This document shows, piece by piece, positions 781-17,513 of a stretch of 26,599 nt of DNA; the stretch's first letter is position 1; each line of letters starts with the position of its first letter. Source of the stretch: a virus. The notes beneath the pieces were generated by a model. It had not been told where the DNA came from, made no database searches, and saw nothing but the letters and a program-made list of their open reading frames with translations. A program made the translations under genes and the position numbers. The stretch covers positions 1 through 26,599 of the IMG/VR virus record IMGVR_UViG_3300017767_000099; one strand, 5' to 3'.

Positions 781-2373
781 TTATTCTAAAAGCCAAGTCA
801 AATCTTGTTGTCCATGTTCCCCCATGTCTTGAGTCCAACCGGCTTCTTTTTTATTTGGTTTACTGGTATAAATAGCAGGAGTACTTCGTTTCCAATTATT
901 TAATGCAGCGTTTGTCATATCAATTCCTTGTTGTGCAAATTTAAGAGCTGTATCTCTTACATAGCAAGCTGTTGCTAGGGACATTACTAAATCATCATTA
1001 TATCCCCCTTGAGCTTCTGCTCTTCCACTTTTCCAAATAAAAGTTCGCATTTCTTCTAGCGTTCTTTTTCCTTGAATAGTAAGTGATTTTTCTCTTAAAT
1101 AAGCATCTAATTTTCCTATTACTAATGGTCTTGATTTCATACTCATTGTAAAACCAGGAACCATTTTAGTTGTGTCTGTTATATCGTATCCTTTTGATAA
1201 AAAGGCATCAGCACTTGTGGCTGCATCTCCTTTAGGTGAGTAATATAAATTTTTATATCCTTTATCTATTACTACTTGAATTGTATTCCATCCTATATTA
1301 GCATTTTCAATTACAAGTAATGCATTATTGTATTCAGTTGCAATAGCAACTAACATATGCCCAAATTCTTTGGTACCAATTTGTGCTTTAAATTCACCAA
1401 TTTGTCTACATTCTTCAACATCTATAATGTGAAATGCTGAATAATCTTTACTATCTCCTCTTGCAACATCCGCTACAACAATAAAATTTCTATTATAATC
1501 AGGATATTCCCATATATGCAAACTGCCATCTAATCCTCTTTTTTCTACAGGATTACATACAGTTGTTTTTTCATAATAAGACATTAAGTCAGGAGCAAAA
1601 ACAGTATTACCTGAAGTTGTAAAATCACAATCACATTCTTGTGCAGCCATTCTTGATCCTAATTCATCTTCTTGTTGAGTTCTCCAAGCTTCATTTCTTT
1701 CTGGATGTACTGTCCAAGGTAATCTTATAGGAGTAAATCCATTAGTTCCTTCTTCTCCTCTAACCCACATTTTATGAAAGAAATTACCTGTACCATTAGG
1801 TGTAGATAAAATTATTGCTCTACCCCCAGTTGATAATGTTTGCTGTGATGATGCCCAAATTTCTTCTATTCTATTTCCTTCAATAAAGGCAGCTTCATCA
1901 ATAATTAGTAAGGATATTGCTTCTGATCTACCAGCATCACTTGCCGCTGATACTGCTTTTACTTGAGAGCCATTTTTAAGTCTAAGTGCTAATTTATTAT
2001 TTTCTTCAAAACCTAATTTAAGCCAAGAAGGTAAATTTTCATACATAAATTTTACCTTTGTTACTAGATTTTTTGCTGTGTCTTGTTTAGTAGCAATTAC
2101 TAATACATTTGTATCTTTTTGAAATATCATTTGCCATAAAGCCATTCCTGCAGATAAAGTAGATATACCTAACTGACGTGATTTTAGTATAATATTTCTT
2201 TCATTTTTATTTAATAATCCTAAAACTTTTTCTTGAAAAGGATATAAATTAAATTTAATACGCCCTCTAGTAGGATGCTGAATCATACAATATTTTTTCA
2301 TAAAGTATACAGGATCCTGAGCACATTTAATGTACTCCTGTTTTATAATTTGTTTTATGTTTTGTTGAGACAT
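781..2373 (-). CDS. terL: Terminase large subunit, T4 gp17-like
   Basis: This 530-aa protein is the ATP-driven DNA packaging motor and headful nuclease. The N-terminal ATPase has the gp17-type deviant Walker A KSRQLGIST at residues 64-72, Walker B LLIIDEAAF at 155-163 with catalytic Glu160, and the coupling motif STPNG at 190-194. The C-terminal RNase H-fold nuclease has its first acidic residue in VVADVARGDSKDYSAF (Asp302), a second in LLVIENANIG (Glu356) and a third in GGYNDDLVMSLA (Asp460/461). All expected catalytic residues are present and the length is normal for the family (T4 gp17 is 610 aa; many marine homologues are shorter). It lies between a P-loop kinase gene (one-base gap) and the portal gene. 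No small terminase was recognised in this window. Confidence 0.96.
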   Translation of the reverse strand: MSQQNIKQIIKQEYIKCAQDPVYFMKKYCMIQHPTRGRIKFNLYPFQEKVLGLLNKNERNIILKSRQLGISTLSAGMALWQMIFQKDTNVLVIATKQDTAKNLVTKVKFMYENLPSWLKLGFEENNKLALRLKNGSQVKAVSAASDAGRSEAISLLIIDEAAFIEGNRIEEIWASSQQTLSTGGRAIILSTPNGTGNFFHKMWVRGEEGTNGFTPIRLPWTVHPERNEAWRTQQEDELGSRMAAQECDCDFTTSGNTVFAPDLMSYYEKTTVCNPVEKRGLDGSLHIWEYPDYNRNFIVVADVARGDSKDYSAFHIIDVEECRQIGEFKAQIGTKEFGHMLVAIATEYNNALLVIENANIGWNTIQVVIDKGYKNLYYSPKGDAATSADAFLSKGYDITDTTKMVPGFTMSMKSRPLVIGKLDAYLREKSLTIQGKRTLEEMRTFIWKSGRAEAQGGYNDDLVMSLATACYVRDTALKFAQQGIDMTNAALNNWKRSTPAIYTSKPNKKEAGWTQDMGEHGQQDLTWLLE

Positions 2374-3232: not shown

Positions 3233-4561
3233 TTAAAAATGTTCATGAAATTCAGGGTATTCTTCTACTACTTTTAATAATGATTCAGCAACATATGTAC
3301 CTTGAGCTCCTGATACTGTAATACCTCTTGCTGATAATGCATCACCTACAAAATAAACATTGGGGAACCTAGTAAGACTTAAATCTTCGTAATTTACCAA
3401 TGGTTCAGGTGATAAATATTTTACTTCAGGCATATAAATACCCCAATCATCTTTTAATGTTGGAAATATTTTTGTCATATCTTTAATAAAATCTATTATA
3501 TGATTACCATGTTCTCCTAATGCATCAAATAATGGTTCTGTATTTTCTACTACAACACATCTAACTAAATTACCTTCTGATGTTTTTGAAGGTATTCTAC
3601 TACTAGGTGAATAATAAGTACCAGTTCCTGCTATTTGTAATTTTTTAACTGCTTCTCTTGACCAATCAAATGGTTTATCTATACCTCTAATTTCCATTAA
3701 AATACCAAAATTAGTCATATCATTTCTATATGCTTCATCTTTTTTAGCATGACCATTATAAGAATGATTTCCATAAGTATCTTCTACAGCAACATAAGCA
3801 GCATTATTATTTGTACAAAATGATCTTAAACTTACATTATCAAGTTTTTTATATAATTTAAAATCATATGATATGTCAATTAATTTTTGAAAATGATGTT
3901 GTGGTGCTTCAAATCTAACTCCTATTTGTACTGGTTTAGGTTCTGTTGGTAAATCATATTTTTCAGCTAATTTTTTACCAAAATCAATTCCTGATTTACC
4001 CACACCAAATATTAACCTATCATAATAAATTCTTCCTGAAGGAATATTTTCTCCATAAACTAAATTAGTATCAAAATTAATGTCAGTTACTTTAGTGTTC
4101 CATAAAAATTCAACTCCATTATCAGTTAAATATGTATACCAATTCTTGCCAATTTCATGTAGATAATCGGTTCCTATATGCCATACGGGGAATAGGCGCA
4201 AACCAAAATAAGGCTTGATAAAATCGGGTTCTTTTACTGGATGAGAACATTGAATTACTTCAGGTTTAGGATGAAATCTTCTAAAATTATCAATAACCTG
4301 ATCCATTAATTCCATAGCTTTTTCATCACCACAGTATTTAGACATATGACCCCCTATAGATGTATGATAAGTTAATTTACCATCTGACCATCCACCAGCA
4401 CCCATAAATCCTGTCATTACTTCTTCAGGTTTACGTTTAAAGGGATCATTACCCATATCAATTATGGTGATTTTACCTTTATGATTGTTATCAATTAGTT
4501 TTGTAGCTGCATTTACTCCTGCAACTCCTGCTCCTATAATTACTAAATGTTCTTTTTCCAT
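3233..4561 (-). CDS. FAD-dependent dehydrogenase, COG2509-like
   Basis: This 442-aa flavoprotein starts MEKEHLVIIGAGVAG. An upstream in-frame ATG would add 12 residues (MVYSSFFIIYNN), but that start lies within the stem-loop terminator, so I prefer the ATG at 4561. The Rossmann dinucleotide-binding loop is G10-x-G12-x-x-G15, with an acidic strand end at Asp35. GAGGWSDGKL (around residues 54-63) resembles the 'GaGaFSDGKL' of COG2509 FAD-dependent dehydrogenases, and the C-terminal VYFVGDALSARGITVSGAQG (around 401-420) is the second FAD-binding Gly-Asp motif followed by 'RGI'. The substrate is unknown. A full-length, apparently intact redox enzyme is unexpected in a late virion operon; it may be an auxiliary metabolic gene. 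It is the first gene after the terminator and so may have its own promoter. Confidence 0.82.
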   Translation of the reverse strand: MEKEHLVIIGAGVAGVNAATKLIDNNHKGKITIIDMGNDPFKRKPEEVMTGFMGAGGWSDGKLTYHTSIGGHMSKYCGDEKAMELMDQVIDNFRRFHPKPEVIQCSHPVKEPDFIKPYFGLRLFPVWHIGTDYLHEIGKNWYTYLTDNGVEFLWNTKVTDINFDTNLVYGENIPSGRIYYDRLIFGVGKSGIDFGKKLAEKYDLPTEPKPVQIGVRFEAPQHHFQKLIDISYDFKLYKKLDNVSLRSFCTNNNAAYVAVEDTYGNHSYNGHAKKDEAYRNDMTNFGILMEIRGIDKPFDWSREAVKKLQIAGTGTYYSPSSRIPSKTSEGNLVRCVVVENTEPLFDALGEHGNHIIDFIKDMTKIFPTLKDDWGIYMPEVKYLSPEPLVNYEDLSLTRFPNVYFVGDALSARGITVSGAQGTYVAESLLKVVEEYPEFHEHF

Positions 4562-4574
4562 ATTATTGTATATA

Positions 4575-4616
4575 ATAAAAAAAGAGCTGTAGACCAAATA
4601 AGGCCACAGCTCTTCA
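4575..4616 (-). terminator. Rho-independent terminator upstream of the FAD dehydrogenase gene
   Basis: A perfect 9-bp stem pairs 4582-4590 (AAGAGCTGT on the plus strand) with 4606-4614 (ACAGCTCTT). Read on the minus strand, the stem is followed directly by a run of T (4583-4577). It lies after the stop of the 64-aa gene at 4658 and before the FAD dehydrogenase start at 4561, so it should end the transcript carrying the holin-like gene. Confidence 0.85.
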
Positions 4617-5263: not shown

Positions 5264-5641
5264 TTAATATTTAATATTGTCTTCAAAGTCTCTAAATAAC
5301 ATATTTCCTTTTAAATATGCTTCCATTTCCATTTTTCTCATATGAGGATCATCTTGGGCATAAGTTAGTGATTGGGACGCATCCCCCATTTCTAAATCAC
5401 CCCTTTCATTTTGGTGATGGTGTACTAATTCATGAGAAAAAGACCTACAAATATCTTTTGGGTGTCTATTTGTTATATATAACACAATAGATTGGTCTGA
5501 TGGATCATAATATGCTGTTCTACCAAAAATATCTTTAGAATTTTCTTCATCATTACGAAGATATAATTTAGGTGCTGTTTGAAGATTATATTCTTCTTTA
5601 GCTACTTTATATATTTCTTTTAATGCTTCTTTTAATTCCAT
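5264..5641 (-). CDS. Small zinc metallopeptidase-like protein (HExxH)
   Basis: This 125-aa protein contains SHELVHHHQNERG, giving a textbook HExxH zinc-binding and catalytic motif (His70, Glu71, His74). A downstream acidic helix MEMEAYLKGN supplies a possible third ligand at Glu105 or Glu107, which would make it a gluzincin-like minimal domain. It has a short lysine/glutamate-rich N-terminal helix (MELKEALKEIYKVAKEEY) and no signal peptide or membrane segment. The start overlaps the previous gene's stop as TAATG, implying coupled translation. Possible roles are prohead or virion protein processing or a lysis function; nothing in the sequence decides between them. A T4 gp21-type prohead protease would be a serine enzyme, so this is not that protein. 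Confidence 0.75.
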   Translation of the reverse strand: MELKEALKEIYKVAKEEYNLQTAPKLYLRNDEENSKDIFGRTAYYDPSDQSIVLYITNRHPKDICRSFSHELVHHHQNERGDLEMGDASQSLTYAQDDPHMRKMEMEAYLKGNMLFRDFEDNIKY

Positions 5642-6078
5642 TACGCTTCTGGTTCTTCATCTGGTGGTGAAGGAGGAGAAGATGGGGGAGGTGTTGAGGG
5701 TGTTGGGGGTGTATCCCCAACTTCTCCTTCTGTTTCTTCATCACCTATTGATTTTAATAAAGGATCTGTTAGTAATTTATTTATATGTTTAATAGCATAA
5801 TTTCTTTCATCTAAATCTCCTACAAAATATTCTTTAGATCCTATTTTAATTAATAAAGAAAAACTTTCATAATATACATCAAAAAATTCTCCATTGAGTA
5901 AAAATACTCTATATGAAGGAGGAATAGTATTTACTGCTTTAAATTTATCTATAAAACGGTTTAAAGGGTCTATTTTAAGTTTATATTTTAAAACACTAAG
6001 TAATTCAGGAGGAGCTTTATACTCTTCTTCCTGAAGATTTACTATTTCTTCTTGTATGTATTTTTTAAGTTTTTTCAT
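5641..6078 (-). CDS. Unknown late protein with proline-rich C-terminal tail
   Basis: This 145-aa protein has an N-terminal Lys/Glu amphipathic helix (MKKLKKYIQEEIVNLQEEEY), a folded-looking middle of about 90 residues (VFLLNGEFFDVYYESFSLLI, KEYFVGDLDERNYAIKHINK), and a tail from about residue 112 made of acidic residues then Pro/Ser/Thr (TPPTPSTPPPSSPPSPPDE). The tail is probably disordered and exposed. The start and stop both use one-base TAATG overlaps with the neighbouring genes, so the three small genes are probably translated as a coupled unit. I do not recognise the family. A virion-associated role is plausible from position and the shared N-terminal helix. Confidence 0.65.
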   Translation of the reverse strand: MKKLKKYIQEEIVNLQEEEYKAPPELLSVLKYKLKIDPLNRFIDKFKAVNTIPPSYRVFLLNGEFFDVYYESFSLLIKIGSKEYFVGDLDERNYAIKHINKLLTDPLLKSIGDEETEGEVGDTPPTPSTPPPSSPPSPPDEEPEA

Positions 6079-6376: not shown

Positions 6377-7999
6377 TTATTTGTTTTTATTTTTATTAAT
6401 TGCTTGTGAAGTTTTTTTTCTTTTATTTTTTAAATATTTGTCTGTTTTGTCTACATCACCATCATTATCTATATCATCATCTTCTTGACCTACTGGATCT
6501 AATTTTTCTTGATAAATGCCTGTAGCTAATTTTTTATCATCGTCTAAATTAAATGTAGCTACATTAGATACTTTTGTAGGTATTTTTATTATGTCTTTAG
6601 CTTCTTGTTCTGAAAAATCAATTTCTAATTTTTGTTTTTTTAAATTTTCATATTGTTTTCTAACTTTAGATAAAAACTGTTCTGGCATAGAAATACCTTT
6701 TTTAGCATAAGATTTAAGAATTTCTTCATTTGTTTGTCCTTTTTCAAACCTACTAAATAACTTTTTCATAGTACCCTCTAACAATACAGTTTGTTTATAT
6801 ATGTCTATATGGGTCATTAAGTTTGTGTTTTTTCTTGAATTTATATAATTTTCAAGTAAATTTTCATTTTGTTGTTCTGGTGGGTTGTCTATAGCTTTTA
6901 TTTGATCTCTTAAAGCTTCAATTTGTTCGTCAAATCCTTTTGAAGCTTGTTGACCTGCTGTGGCTGCTTGAGCCATTGCTTTAGCTTTTTGTTTTTCAAT
7001 ATATTTTAATTGATATTGAATAACACCTTTTTGTAGACGTTTTAATCCTGTTTCGTATGCCTTTGCTTCTGGGTCTTGAGCTTGCTCTGTTACCATACCA
7101 CCATGACTAAATTGGTTTAAATTTACTGTTTTTTTGTCTCCATCTTCATCTTCTAATTCTAAAACAAATCCATCATTACTAATTACAGTATAAGAGCTCC
7201 CCATATATTTTACTTTACGTCCTACTTTAATTTTATCCTTAAAGTCTTCAGGACTTATTTTAGACATATATTGTTTTTTAAATTTAGATTCAGCAAAAAA
7301 ACTAAAACTTGCTTCAATAATTCTTTCACCTGGCTCATCATCACGATCAGACACACCATGAAATTCAAATGTAAATTCTTCTGTTATTTCATTAACTTTA
7401 TCAAAAATTTTTTTAAGTATTTCTACTTGGTCTTTTTCCCACATTGAAAGATCTCTATGGTCTATTCGTAAATAATATCCTTCTTTACCGTTATATGATC
7501 CTCCTCTTACGGTTTCATCCACTTTTAATTTTAAGTCTTCTGTAGTTGTTTTTATTAGTAATTGAAAATCTGGGTGTTCACCCATTTTGTAGGGGTTATT
7601 TTGTTCCATCATACCAGTTGCTGTTCTTTTTGGTCTTTTTGTAAAAGGATATTCGTCTGTGTGTTTTATAGCTCTTGTAGAAGGGACTCCTTGAGTAGTT
7701 AAAGTAGCATGCCCGTAAGCTTGCTCATTAGTTTTTTTATTTGATTCAAACATTCCCATTTTAGTTCTATTATAATTAAGGGGGTCGGCCTCTTTTGTAT
7801 AATGATTACCATCACCACCATAAATACTCTTATACATATAATTTTTTAATTCTTCAACGTCATCTGCAAAAGGTCTAGGTGAAACCATATTATTACCATC
7901 ATCAGAAGTTGCTCCTGTTGACGCCATATCTCCTGTACCTGTGTATTCTTTTATAGGTAAGAGTTTTTTAATTAGTTCCTGTAGTTTCTTTTTGTCCAT
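6377..7999 (-). CDS. Virion-associated protein with EF-hand-like C-terminus
   Basis: This 540-aa protein, of a type seen in marine T4-like phages, has no known enzyme motif. It starts MDKKKLQELIKKLLPIKEY, a basic amphipathic helix similar to those of neighbouring gene products. The middle has a possible coiled coil (around residues 310-375, ending EQIEALRDQIKAID) and a predicted beta segment around GRKVKYMGSSYTVIS. Near the C-terminus DIDNDGDVDKTD (residues 509-520) has the exact spacing of an EF-hand or dockerin calcium loop. It is followed by a basic tail KYLKNKRKK. The 'D.D.DGDvD..D.YL..R' ending recurs in many marine myovirus virion proteins. The start overlaps the upstream gene by 32 bases. 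Confidence 0.7.
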   Translation of the reverse strand: MDKKKLQELIKKLLPIKEYTGTGDMASTGATSDDGNNMVSPRPFADDVEELKNYMYKSIYGGDGNHYTKEADPLNYNRTKMGMFESNKKTNEQAYGHATLTTQGVPSTRAIKHTDEYPFTKRPKRTATGMMEQNNPYKMGEHPDFQLLIKTTTEDLKLKVDETVRGGSYNGKEGYYLRIDHRDLSMWEKDQVEILKKIFDKVNEITEEFTFEFHGVSDRDDEPGERIIEASFSFFAESKFKKQYMSKISPEDFKDKIKVGRKVKYMGSSYTVISNDGFVLELEDEDGDKKTVNLNQFSHGGMVTEQAQDPEAKAYETGLKRLQKGVIQYQLKYIEKQKAKAMAQAATAGQQASKGFDEQIEALRDQIKAIDNPPEQQNENLLENYINSRKNTNLMTHIDIYKQTVLLEGTMKKLFSRFEKGQTNEEILKSYAKKGISMPEQFLSKVRKQYENLKKQKLEIDFSEQEAKDIIKIPTKVSNVATFNLDDDKKLATGIYQEKLDPVGQEDDDIDNDGDVDKTDKYLKNKRKKTSQAINKNKNK

Positions 8000-8588: not shown

Positions 8589-9313
8589 TTAATATTTTTT
8601 ATAAATTTCAAGAAGAGATTTTTTAAATTTTTGGTTTTCATCTATAGTCCCTGATGTTGGTCCTCTTGAACTATAAAAATCTGATTGAGCTTTTGATTCT
8701 GCGTCTCTTCCTTTTATCATAGCTTTTATCATTTCTAATGCTGTGTTTATATCTACAGGAATAGGTTGATCATCTACACCTACATTCATAAATCCTGAAT
8801 AACTTGAATCCCCCATTTGACCCAGTTCAGGTAATACATCTTTAAGTGCATAATATGTTTTTTCATATCCAAAAGCTCTAAGAAATTGTAATTCTCCTCT
8901 ATCCTTTTTAAATAATATTTCTTGAGTAGATCTACTTTTATATTGAAGAGAACCTAAATCTGGATAAATTGTAATTTCACCATCCTCATATTTATATGCA
9001 TCTTTTATTCCAACTAATTTATCTTTAAGATATACTTCATCGTATGATAATCCCCCTTTTGTTGGTTCTTTTTTCTTTATTCTAATAGCATTTTCAATTG
9101 CTTCAATTTCTGCTCCATATTCATCTGCTATAGGACCACCTTCAGGTTCAGCTTCTTGTTCCATTTCTCTGTAGACTTGTTCTAAACGATCTTGAAGATC
9201 TTCTAAATCATAAAATTCAACATATTCTTTAGTACGTTGATCAACAGGAGCCCCTTGTTCCCTTAGGGGCTTTATTCCTGCTAATTCTTTAAACCTATCT
9301 GGAAGAGATTTTT

Positions 9314-9317
<4 letters not shown>
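8589..9317 (-). CDS. Unknown virion-associated protein
   Basis: This 242-aa protein starts MKKSLPDRFKELAGIKPLRE. The 'RFKELAGI..L.E' opening is a recurrent N-terminus among structural proteins of marine T4-like phages. It then shows a coiled-coil-like acidic stretch (EDLQDRLEQVYREMEQEAE, about residues 39-57), a beta-rich centre (GEITIYPDLGSLQYKS) and a helical C-terminus ending KKSLLEIYKKY. There are no cysteines and no enzyme motifs. The start overlaps the stop of the 1423-aa gene as ATGA. A GC-rich hairpin lies about 46 bases inside the gene (9249-9271). A packaged or scaffold-linked protein is an inference from the N-terminus and context. Confidence 0.6.
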
Positions 9318-13585
<4,268 letters not shown>

Positions 13586-13595
13586 TTCTTTTTTT

Positions 13596-16500
13596 TTAGA
13601 AATCGGAAACCATCCCTCCTAGAATAAATTTTCCTGTTATTTTATACGGTTGTGTTGCTATGTTTTTGTCTCTAATTACTTCTCCTTCATGGTTTTCAAC
13701 TGATCCCATAGGAGAATCTAATACTTTAAGTATTTCATCACCTAATTTTTCAGTTGCAAGATAAGTTGTAAACCCTTCAATTGCTTTTTGTTTATCATTT
13801 TCATCATCAAATAGATCTTCTATATTTTCTTTTTGAAGAATAGCCAAATAAACCTGCTTTGAAACAGCTCCAACTTTTTTCTTAGTACCGTTAACGTTCA
13901 TAAATATAAAGTCTTTTTCAGGGATGTTATTTAATTCATTTAATAGATCACTTAATGACTTATTTACTGTGTTTTCCCCCGCTTCAATGGTATATTGTTT
14001 AGAAAGTGCTGCATTAAAATTTGGTTTTTTCTTCATTTCTGTTGGGACTGATCCATACACTTCAAAATCGTTTTTCTTTGCTGTTGGTTTTAAATTGTTT
14101 AGTAAAGATTCTAAAGCTGACTTATCATAAGACACTTCAGAAGACACTCTTTTAGTTAACATTTTTCTTTTTCCTTGTACTTCTTTAGTTTCTATTTTAT
14201 TTAAACCATGTATTGCTATAAAATTTGAACCATAATCTTGTACGTTAGTTTTTCCACTAACATATTCCATATTAAATAATATGTTTGGATCATCATATGC
14301 TCCTAATTTTTTAAGGTCAGCTTCTAAAGAAGGTAATGCTTCATTAAACATGTCTAATACTTCTCCTCCTACTTTAACCATTCCATGACCATCTCCAAAT
14401 CTACTTAATAAATCATCTTTTGTAATACCTTTTACGTCTAAAGATTTTTTAGAACCTCTGTCCATTACAAATTGTTTTTTACCATCTAAATCTACTAAAC
14501 GAATAGAACTATTTACTCCATCTATTTTTACAGAACCAGGAGTTTTATTTAGGGATTCTGCTGTTTTTTCAAATATATTTAATAAATCTTTACCTGAATT
14601 AACATTTGATAAATTAAAAGGGTGTGCCATATGTCCTGCTGCTCCTCCTTCTGTTAATAATGTTTCATTGATAATTTCTTTCCACCATGCTTTAGTAAAT
14701 GTACCTTCTTTTTTCATTCTTTGTGTTTTTTTCTTTGATGCTTCTTTACGTTTTTTAATGTATTCAAAAGCTGATTTTAAACGTTTTTTCTTTTGTGGGT
14801 CTTTTGTTCTACCTAAAGCAGCTCTTACTCTTTGATGTATTAAATTTATAATTTGTGATTGACGAGCATGAGATTTACTTTTAAATGATTTTTTTGTTAA
14901 AGTATCTACTATGTCTTGTCTAGTACTAAATTTAACTTTAACTGTGTCTTTAGGATTTTCGTCTGTATATAATCTTCTACCTGATCCTTTAGGTTTTTTA
15001 CCTGTTCCTTTTTTAGGATCAACTTCATTTATAGGGTTAAACATTACGTCTGGTAATTCATTATAATTAATCCCTATATAATCACCAACATTTACATTGT
15101 TATTTTTACAATACCCCCCAGGTAATTCTAATACTGTGTCTGCTTTTCCAGTGTATTTAGGACACCAACCACCTTTACAAGGGGAAGCACTGTGGTCTAT
15201 TTTATTTATTTTATTATTATCTATAAAAACTATATCTAGAGGAATTTTACAATTTTGCATATGAAATTGTCTTTTAGCTATGTCTAAATAAGGAAAAATC
15301 ATTCCTCCTTCTAATTCATTTCTACCCATCATACCTTGTACTTGTAATTCAGGTGTATCCATTACTTCTAAAGGTATAAATTTATCATGGATTACAGCTG
15401 TGCTTTCATTTAAACTCATCATAGTATCATATGATTTTGTTTTTAAATCATTTAATTGTAATATAAAATCTGTTCTTCTTAAAACTTTAAATGCTAAATT
15501 TTCAACACTATATTCTCCACCTTTTTCAAGGCCTGATGATCTCATATTTCTAAGTCTTTCTTTAATTCTATCTACAGAATTTATAACTTCTTGATATTGT
15601 TTATTATTAAATAATATTTTAATTTGGGGTAATTGAGACCAATAACCTTCTGCTTTAGATTTTATATCTTCTTTATCGAGAATTATTTTATTTTTAACAG
15701 GTTCATTAATCCATTTATCATTTAATACTGAGTATAAACCAGATGCTGTATGTTTTTCATCTTTATCTTCAACGTATACCTCAACAGGATAACCAAACAT
15801 ATCTATTTCATGTCTTTCATTCCATATTGATTTTTTAGCTAAAAAATAATCTCTAGCAAAATTTTTATTTTTTACAATTTGGGAATAATCTAATACTAAA
15901 TGTAAATCAACATCTGAAAATTTAGACCAATTATAATTAGCTAAACTACCTGTTAGTTTTATATCTTTTAATATTGTGTTTTTAGGTAATTCTAATGATT
16001 CAAAAAAATCTTGTGCTATTAACAATAATTTTTTTCTAATTTCGGGTTTTAATTTATTATTTTCCCACACATCAGTAACTAATGTATCTTGAATATTAAA
16101 ACTATTTATAACATCATCTGAAAATGAAATTTCATATAATTTTCTTGTAAGTGTACCTTTTAAATAATCAGGTACTTTTATATATTGATCTCCTTGTTTT
16201 TTAAGATCTTTTTTTAAACGTTTAAGATTTTTGCTGTGTTTAGCTTTTTCTTGATTATTCATAGTACCCATCATTTCTCTAATTGATGCTGGGTCTTCTA
16301 CTTTTAAAAATATGTCTGGATATTTATCTTTTAACGCAGATACTGATGTTCTGTTTTCTTCAGAATCATCTATAAAATAAATTGTTTGATATCCTTTTTT
16401 TATATGATTCTCAATCCAATTAGCTTTATCTTGACCTGTTACTTTACCATCTACTTGTAGGCCTAAAGGTACAACATAAGCATCTAAGCCTAATTCTTCC

Positions 16501-17513
16501 CTCATATATCTTGTTACGGGGTGTCCTATAGAACGCGCTGTAAGGATTGTTGTTTTTACTTCTGTTTTACTTAATGAATTTTTTAATTTACTTACTACCC
16601 CTGTGTTTATAATAGCATCCCTTATTTGTTTTTCAAAGTTTTTAAAATCATATGTAATGTCTAAATTACCTAATCTTGCTTCTAATTCTTTACTTTTTGT
16701 TGGAAATTCTTCTGATGATATGTCTAATTCTTGATAAAAATCAGGATCAGTGGGGCTAGTTATAACTGTTTTTATGTTGGTTTTTACTTTAGCTATAGTA
16801 TCGTCAAAATCATAAACATGTAGTATTTTTCCTTTTTCATTTTGAACCTCTTCTCCAAAATTACGTTTACGGTAAAGAGCGGATCCTATGCCCCCATTTC
16901 TGTATTTGTAATTGTTAGATGTTAGTTTTTTGGGGTTTGGGTCATTTGTTTTTGCAAAATCACGGTAATGATCATCAGGATGATATAAATCTTCTTTTAA
17001 ATTTGTAACTATATTCCAAGCTGCTTTTTCGTCTGTATTTAAAGGTAAACCATCAATAAAAAATTCTTTATTATCATTTTTAATATAACTACGCATTAAA
17101 GTGCCTGATATTTTTTTGTTAGTTCTTGAAGTTTGATCTGGTATATTAATAAATTCTATATTGATTTTTTTATTAAATTTTTTAGCGTAGGTAGGAATTC
17201 TTACAAAACGTGGATCTTCATTGTCTTTTTCTCCTTTTATAAAAAAAAGAGTATCTCCATCCTTAGCTTCTAATTCTACAAAATCATACACATCTCTTAC
17301 TGGAGAAATATTTGCTTTTCTAATTTCTATATTTTCTCCTTGTGTGTATAATTCCCATAATTTAACAGACATATCTTGGGTTATACTTTCTCTTTCTTTA
17401 GGGCCAACAAATACAATAACTTTCTCTACTTGTTGAGAAGCTATTTTAGCTGCTTTGTAATGTCCTATGTGTGGGGGTTTGTATCCCCCAGGATATAGTG
17501 CTATATTTGCCAT
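13596..17513 (-). CDS. Multidomain enzyme fusion: HxGH NTase, HAD, Pol-beta NTase, DUF192, ligase-like
   Basis: This 1305-aa protein carries at least five recognisable modules. Residues 1-145 are an HxGH nucleotidyltransferase (YPGGYKPPHIGHYKAA at 7-22; ISGTLMR at 135-141), of the NMNAT/cytidylyltransferase superfamily. Residues 230-405 are a HAD phosphatase (DFDDTI 235-240, TILTAR 322-327, FIDDSEEN 380-387). Residues 505-600 are a Pol-beta-type nucleotidyltransferase (GSLANYNWSKFSDVDLHLV 522-540, metal-binding Asp534 and Asp536). Residues 713-820 match DUF192 (IPLDIVFID, VNVGDYIGI). Residues 834-935 are a basic DUF5872-like segment (KPKGSGRRLYTDENP). Residues 955-1305 are a DUF6267-like domain with ligase-type motifs KIDG (996-999), NMEYV (1081-1085) and EGEVI (1276-1280). 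Counterparts of these modules occur in marine T4-like phages. Substrates are unknown; polynucleotide end repair or NAD-linked chemistry are the main options. Confidence 0.82.
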   Translation of the reverse strand: MANIALYPGGYKPPHIGHYKAAKIASQQVEKVIVFVGPKERESITQDMSVKLWELYTQGENIEIRKANISPVRDVYDFVELEAKDGDTLFFIKGEKDNEDPRFVRIPTYAKKFNKKINIEFINIPDQTSRTNKKISGTLMRSYIKNDNKEFFIDGLPLNTDEKAAWNIVTNLKEDLYHPDDHYRDFAKTNDPNPKKLTSNNYKYRNGGIGSALYRKRNFGEEVQNEKGKILHVYDFDDTIAKVKTNIKTVITSPTDPDFYQELDISSEEFPTKSKELEARLGNLDITYDFKNFEKQIRDAIINTGVVSKLKNSLSKTEVKTTILTARSIGHPVTRYMREELGLDAYVVPLGLQVDGKVTGQDKANWIENHIKKGYQTIYFIDDSEENRTSVSALKDKYPDIFLKVEDPASIREMMGTMNNQEKAKHSKNLKRLKKDLKKQGDQYIKVPDYLKGTLTRKLYEISFSDDVINSFNIQDTLVTDVWENNKLKPEIRKKLLLIAQDFFESLELPKNTILKDIKLTGSLANYNWSKFSDVDLHLVLDYSQIVKNKNFARDYFLAKKSIWNERHEIDMFGYPVEVYVEDKDEKHTASGLYSVLNDKWINEPVKNKIILDKEDIKSKAEGYWSQLPQIKILFNNKQYQEVINSVDRIKERLRNMRSSGLEKGGEYSVENLAFKVLRRTDFILQLNDLKTKSYDTMMSLNESTAVIHDKFIPLEVMDTPELQVQGMMGRNELEGGMIFPYLDIAKRQFHMQNCKIPLDIVFIDNNKINKIDHSASPCKGGWCPKYTGKADTVLELPGGYCKNNNVNVGDYIGINYNELPDVMFNPINEVDPKKGTGKKPKGSGRRLYTDENPKDTVKVKFSTRQDIVDTLTKKSFKSKSHARQSQIINLIHQRVRAALGRTKDPQKKKRLKSAFEYIKKRKEASKKKTQRMKKEGTFTKAWWKEIINETLLTEGGAAGHMAHPFNLSNVNSGKDLLNIFEKTAESLNKTPGSVKIDGVNSSIRLVDLDGKKQFVMDRGSKKSLDVKGITKDDLLSRFGDGHGMVKVGGEVLDMFNEALPSLEADLKKLGAYDDPNILFNMEYVSGKTNVQDYGSNFIAIHGLNKIETKEVQGKRKMLTKRVSSEVSYDKSALESLLNNLKPTAKKNDFEVYGSVPTEMKKKPNFNAALSKQYTIEAGENTVNKSLSDLLNELNNIPEKDFIFMNVNGTKKKVGAVSKQVYLAILQKENIEDLFDDENDKQKAIEGFTTYLATEKLGDEILKVLDSPMGSVENHEGEVIRDKNIATQPYKITGKFILGGMVSDF

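Follow-up and report, generated by a model that had tools for sequence, protein, structure and literature searches.

Three described systems are among the closest to the gene analysed in the present study, which occupies positions 13596-17513 on the minus strand of the viral record IMGVR_UViG_3300017767_000099 (positions 1 to 26,599; this whole 26,599-nucleotide stretch of DNA is the window hereafter). First, polyvalent proteins (Iyer et al. 2017, PMC5512222) carry unrelated enzyme domains in one chain, show variable architectures and are predicted to enter the host together with the DNA; their processing by zincins, or in a C-terminal assemblin-like manner, has been proposed, the ARTs of T4-like phages are mentioned as not genuine polyvalent proteins, and DUF192 is absent from the text of that report. 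Second, the T4 internal proteins, such as IPI-III and Alt, are encoded by separate genes and carry one N-terminal leader of 10-19 residues, a capsid-targeting sequence in which residues 4 and 7 serve targeting and residues 8 and 10 serve cutting, and the T4 prohead protease, gp21, cuts after L/I-x-E (PMC9026906). Third, in phages of the phiKZ/SPN3US type, many packaged head proteins, which are single proteins with propeptides, are substrates of a gp21-like protease that cleaves behind x-E (PMC9026906).

The 1305-amino-acid (aa) product of the window's gene appears to combine polyvalent proteins (PMC5512222) with T4 internal proteins bearing capsid-targeting sequences, a combination not found described in the searched literature (subscription literature was outside its scope). 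As in polyvalent proteins, at least two disparate activity domains are present per chain and the architectures vary (52 module orders among 60 complete IMG/VR relatives), and Pol-beta nucleotidyltransferases (NTases), GNATs and zincins are domain classes in common; in contrast, the present family belongs to T4-like phages, has fixed NMNAT-like and ligase-like ends, and carries the prohead-protease motif at its joints. The cut motif is also that of IPI-III and Alt, gp21 is encoded by relatives of the window's phage, and stand-alone homologues bear leaders of 8-14 residues with F at positions 4 and 7 and E at the end, whereas the window's gene encodes many modules together, with the sites inside the chain and without a leader at the N-terminus. 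The phiKZ/SPN3US-type proteins differ in that no cassette-swapping enzyme polyprotein of this kind was described in the literature examined. Herein, we propose that the gene, from a T4-like marine phage, encodes a head-packaged cargo polyprotein, which would be cut by the prohead protease and ejected, and to this reading we assign a probability of about 0.72. An earlier note, made from the sequence alone, had listed a polyprotein cleaved later as the third of its alternatives, and it is this one that is supported by the enrichment of [LIM]xE at module borders, by the leaders and by gp21 in relatives.

Homology breakpoints were mapped by local alignment between 79 dereplicated relatives, giving 149 distinct module-start border contexts. 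The motif [LIM]xE was observed at 56% of these borders, compared with 10.8% at random positions of the same proteins (z 17, a score that overstates independence, as related proteins share borders), and at 71% of borders with at least 10 supporting partners. Because of the shared borders, the residue and spacing controls provide the safer argument: the next best [LIM]xX reached 2.7-fold (X = M), [LIM]E and [LIM]xxE stayed at background, such that a shift of one residue removes the signal, and polar-x-E showed no enrichment at module borders. Glutamate directly precedes module starts even behind unrelated upstream modules, and in an alignment of 42 full-length relatives, including both C-terminal types (ligase and DUF6267), E950 and E955 are invariant, as are W943 and W944. 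These results bear on an alternative in which the protein would remain an uncut multidomain polyvalent protein and the border motif would represent helical linkers or a relic of fused leader-bearing genes. The fusion of such genes would leave [LIM]xE behind, the N4 virion RNA polymerase is a precedent for a protein packaged uncut, and polyvalent proteins mix disparate domains (PMC5512222). However, relics should decay, while the exact motif spacing is kept across many module pairs and both glutamates are preserved in all 42 relatives; moreover, borders show no enrichment of other combinations of acidic or hydrophobic residues, and we consider an uncut protein unlikely.

L/I-x-E, which in gp21 substrates stands at the mature N-terminus, is present both at module borders and at the ends of stand-alone leaders, and cleavage by the prohead protease is predicted at the following minus-strand sites, where a slash marks the cut. 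LKE174/DLY (16992-17000) belongs to a [LI]xE/D[LF]Y motif conserved across relatives, and IRE413/MMG (16275-16283) falls where the confidence of the HAD model is below 50 (model residues 191-194, aa 412-415). Border motifs are likewise found at LYE461/ISF (16131-16139) and LNE703/STAV (15405-15413), while INE830/VDPKKG (15024-15032) precedes a module that stands behind other [LIM]xE in relatives. Finally, INE950/T and LTE955/GGAAGHM (14649-14672) contain the invariant E950 and E955, and the second of them is also the cut at which the stand-alone leaders end.

These leaders were observed in distant relatives, in which the ligase module is encoded by its own gene and nearly always preceded by 8-14 residues ending at the same cut point. 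The leaders before GGAAGHM include MKTFKQYYNTILNE, MKSFKQFIINE, MKTFKNYILNE, MTTFKEFYQLISE, MISFKQFVLE and MKKKLLTE, and one stand-alone copy (L085) begins M/GGAAGHM, which therefore represents the natural start of the ligase module. In the fused proteins, a segment of the form F[ST]KxWWxxxxx-E-xx[LI]xE, aromatic-rich like the leaders, stands before the ligase or DUF6267 module, and this segment (FTKxWWKEII-NE-xLLTE/GG; FTKAWWKEIINETLLTE) may be an internal capsid-targeting sequence.

The modules are shuffled extensively among the 60 complete relatives, with several module pairs occurring in both orders. Constant features are the NMNAT-like N-terminus and a ligase-like C-terminus of either of two kinds, the ligase module in 35 relatives and DUF6267 in 24, while HAD is found in 24, a HELEH-bearing module in 13, DUF192 in 9 and Pol-beta in one, the window's protein itself. 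The swapped middle modules comprise (metallo)peptidase-like, SET, plastocyanin-type copper protein, GNAT and RegB-like modules. Joints of this type also occur in cultured phages. A relative of 908 aa in the Flavobacterium phage immuto has joints of its own (VMAE/GRYD in gp088), and in the Microcystis phage Mel-JY01 an NMNAT-like module is fused to the ligase, with NIIAE/GG at the border.

This exchange bears on the single multifunctional end-healing and sealing machine that the earlier note had envisaged. A cytoplasmic Pnkp-like multi-enzyme for nucleic-acid repair or counter-defence, made during infection and not packaged, would account for a HAD fold, a ligase fold and an NTase in one chain; a weak match to a PNK family (phrog_415, E 0.15) is consistent with it, and Pnkp (Pnkp1/Rnl/Hen1) occurs among the structure matches of the HAD model, which are general HAD phosphatases. 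However, relatives may lack HAD, Pol-beta or DUF192 and carry unrelated modules in their place, the middle cassettes are freely swapped, the polyprotein gene lies in the late head-gene cluster of a syntenic relative (G020), and single-module homologues are present in virions. The Pnkp-type trio of 3'-phosphatase, kinase and ligase was not found kept together, with no kinase module recognised and HAD limited to the 24 relatives mentioned above. Since the module set is not fixed, a single heal-and-seal machine was rejected as the main explanation, and an unpackaged enzyme of this kind is very unlikely. Counter-defence is nevertheless plausible as the purpose of individual modules; a PADLOC scan of five polyproteins matched no known defence or counter-defence family.

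DUF6267 (PF19782, phrog_455), the alternative C-terminal module, resembles the ligase module in carrying KWDG and EG[FY]VA motifs behind leaders or joints that end in x-E, and is probably another covalent nucleotidyltransferase. It differs in that profile comparison could not align the two modules (probability 1.7), and homology by sequence profiles was not detected; the sole relation is a weak structure match of the ligase model to an S-PM2 protein (E 1e-3). DUF6267, which was observed in 464 cultured phage records, carries KWDG and EGFVAVD...KLVDR motifs, e.g. at L005:2779-3954. Among the 42 aligned relatives, plastocyanin/azurin-type copper-binding modules are present in four and SET methyltransferase modules in three. 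In another record, the 'GDTYEKMAAKGKK' module is a separate gene (L002:5896-6579) adjoining the polyprotein, again after MEE, and modules therefore move between the polyprotein and adjacent genes.

The predicted cutter is encoded by relatives of the window's phage. Of 20 related records, 11 encode Peptidase_S77, the gp21 family; each of the four records above 130 kb is among them, as are several with fused polyproteins. In G020 (28.6 kb), the genes for the major capsid protein, scaffold, gp21, portal and TerL are followed by the window's genes in the same order up to the polyprotein. The window itself encodes a T4-type terminase large subunit (781-2373, minus strand), and the T4-like phage context given in the earlier note is supported. 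As the terminase is nearest to that of the Flavobacterium phage immuto (58%), its sequence suggests a Bacteroidota host. A polyprotein might also be cleaved by a zincin-like metallopeptidase, encoded by a nearby gene or module, instead of gp21. Zincin processing has been proposed for polyvalent proteins (PMC5512222), a gene for a putative metallopeptidase is located at 5264-5641, and the HELEH module is carried by 13 of the 60 relatives. Most relatives, the window's protein included, have no such module, however, and L/I-x-E is the documented gp21 motif, which also ends the leaders of stand-alone proteins; a zincin is thus the least probable of the explanations weighed here.

Virion evidence is available from the Synechococcus phage S-CREM2, for which published mass spectrometry lists ORF154 (cytidylyltransferase), ORF155 and ORF156 (PMC10665884). 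ORF156 (gp156) is a homologue of the window's Pol-beta module (tblastn, 34% identity, 1e-25), and ORF154 begins MKNFSSFLTE/A. A strict leader, M..[FL]..F[LMF].E, for which the T4 leader served as template but which was picked after inspection of the data, is carried by 5 of 26 non-structural virion proteins, none of 26 structural proteins and none of 167 undetected proteins (p 3e-5).

Several points weigh against a packaged and cleaved polyprotein, in addition to the shared borders and the choice of the strict pattern mentioned above. The looser leader definition is weak in S-CREM2 (9/26 versus 26/167, p 0.024; all virion proteins, p 0.053), and the authors of that study caution that co-purification is possible (PMC10665884). 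Approximately 40% of borders are without an exact [LIM]xE, and the motif is found within folded modules as well (e.g. aa 54, 339 and 1199), therefore accessibility must decide cutting. No N-terminal capsid-targeting leader was found on the polyprotein, which starts directly with the NMNAT-like fold (MANIALYPGGYKPPH) and is therefore not filed as a classical T4 internal protein, and no gp21 gene was found within the 26.6-kb window. Packaging and cleavage of the window's protein are what we infer from sequence, and virion presence is known for single-module homologues.

For the cargo polyprotein proposed here, the following course of events can be envisaged. The constant NMNAT-like and ligase-like domains would flank swappable enzyme modules joined at [L/I/M]-x-E, the polyprotein would be targeted to the prohead, and a gp21-type protease would cut the joints there. 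Cutting would free separate small enzymes in the head, namely the NMNAT-like, HAD, Pol-beta NTase, DUF192, basic and ligase proteins, and these might be ejected with the DNA at infection, each with a presumed role in the host. In a broader form, for which the chances appear about even, the locus would be a plug-in cargo cassette of marine T4-like phages, with fixed ends, exchangeable enzymes and prohead-protease joints, such that any recombined enzyme would be packaged, cleaved and delivered to the next host; the same targeting code would label single effectors (kinase, SAM hydrolase, Cas9-like nuclease and cytidylyltransferase) in cyanophage heads. If true, head-carried, injected proteins could be recognised in the genomes of T4-like marine phages wherever [L/I/M]-x-E marks a module joint or closes a 10-residue leader, and many "hypothetical" genes (DUF6267, DUF192, NMNAT-like, Pol-beta and many unnamed modules) would become predicted early effectors. 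The predicted mature N-termini would be directly checkable by mass spectrometry, and the hypothesis may answer the question left open by the S-CREM2 authors, whether the virion enzymes of cyanophages are really packaged.

Other S-CREM2 (L241) proteins were noted with respect to leaders. The proteins gp6, gp12, gp13 and gp14 include a SAM hydrolase, an APH-like kinase and a small protein detected in virions, and these three carry 10-residue capsid-targeting-like leaders (MKDFDSFLEE, VKRFDAFLTE and MKDLHSFLTE). The Cas9-like nuclease gp12 shows RFASFMAE/A near its annotated start.

The reading frame of the polyprotein gene is intact, with ATG at 17513, the stop codon at 13596-13598 and 1305 codons in between without an internal stop; on the plus strand, by comparison, stops abound in this region. 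An assembly artefact or frameshift was excluded, because relatives on independent IMG/VR contigs are full-length and in frame. The single stop-free frame described in the earlier note therefore stands, with the addition of the strand, and its five modules (HxGH NTase, HAD, Pol-beta, DUF192 and ligase-like) were recovered by profile searches and models; a sixth, basic module between DUF192 and the ligase-like module had been missed.

The ligase-like module 6 (aa 956-1305; 13599-14648, minus strand) contains KIDG, NMEY, EGEVIR and YKITGK. As to whether KIDG, NMEY(V) and EGEV(I) share one site, all were found in register within one well-predicted domain (mean pLDDT 91), and both the fold and the register, on which the ligase assignment had been said to depend, were supported. 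In a 35-sequence alignment of this region, K41, D43, G44, E128, E321, G322, V324 and K336 (domain numbering) are invariant, and ligase motifs I, III, IV and V occur in order on the ligase fold. T4 Rnl1 was the top match in Foldseek against PDB, with weak E-values (best 0.035), and ranked first in VIA-align (Z 9.0, 3.8 A, 176 residues), where nearly all leading rows were RNA or DNA ligases. The likeness to these ligases thus lies in the fold and in the ordered, invariant K-x-D-G, E, E-G-x-V and K, whereas sequence similarity is very low: Pfam RNA_ligase (PF09414) was matched weakly by 6 of 35 members (best E 0.004), a PDB sequence-profile search gave chance matches alone, and tblastn of the domain alone against cultured phages gave no match at 1e-3, the diverged Mel-JY01 copy surfacing with the full-protein query alone. 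Because the motifs are invariant in 35 sequences and the structure matches to ligases are led by T4 Rnl1, a covalent nucleotidyltransferase fold is well supported, with the activity being putative.

The upstream modules are also encoded on the minus strand. Module 1 (aa 1-174; 16992-17513; GGYKPPHIGH ... ISGTLMR) is NMNAT/cytidylyltransferase-like and is shared by every relative of the fused family. Its first ~170 residues match Pfam CTP_transf_like (E 2e-4) and TIGR00125 (5e-6), residues 3-142 match a NadR-type model (E 8.5e-4), and the HxGH and ISxTxxR motifs are invariant or nearly so, although all family matches except PF01467 fall under the curated cut-offs. Module 2 (aa 175-413; 16275-16991) comprises a linker and a HAD phosphatase-fold domain (DFDDT, TILTAR, DDSEEN), modelled at ~228-410 with pLDDT 78, with HAD phosphatases as the best structure matches and motif residues invariant in 19 relatives. 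It is followed by a conserved basic linker (aa 414-461; 16131-16274) found in 44 of the 60 complete relatives. The Pol-beta-type module 3 (aa 462-703; 15405-16130), whose S-CREM2 homologue is the virion protein gp156, matches phrog_36119 over residues 472-698 (1.6e-43), with weak MTPAP and NTP_transf_2 matches, and module 4 (aa 704-830; 15024-15404) matches DUF192 over residues 714-813 (E 2.9e-21). Module 5 (aa 831-955; 14649-15023) consists of the basic 'GSGRRLYTDENP' module (~831-940), without a Pfam match, and the capsid-targeting-like segment; the working label DUF5872 is unsupported by Pfam and is not claimed.

Among the neighbouring genes of the minus strand, four between 5641 and 13585 (5641-6078, 6377-7999, 8589-9317 and 9314-13585) encode short basic N-termini containing [LI]xE and are candidates for co-packaged head proteins. 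The last, which follows the polyprotein gene immediately downstream and encodes 1423 aa, opens like a leader (MKKKELYNLIKNSIKEQ), contains numerous Cys-rich 'DPxACNYD' repeats and a stretch of poly-Gly, and ends in a Hint-type (self-splicing or self-cleaving) domain (Vint 1.2e-5, just under the cut-off). The small putative metallopeptidase at 5264-5641 carries HELVH (DUF6647/DUF6782), and immuto gp088 contains this domain as a fused part. The C-terminal 35-residue segment of the ORF at 6377-7999 recurs at protein ends in pelagiphage, methylophage and immuto genomes, consistent with presumed virion proteins having an EF-hand-like tail in common. An FAD/NAD(P)-dependent oxidoreductase (Pyr_redox_2; 3233-4597) lies among the head genes and is syntenic in G020.

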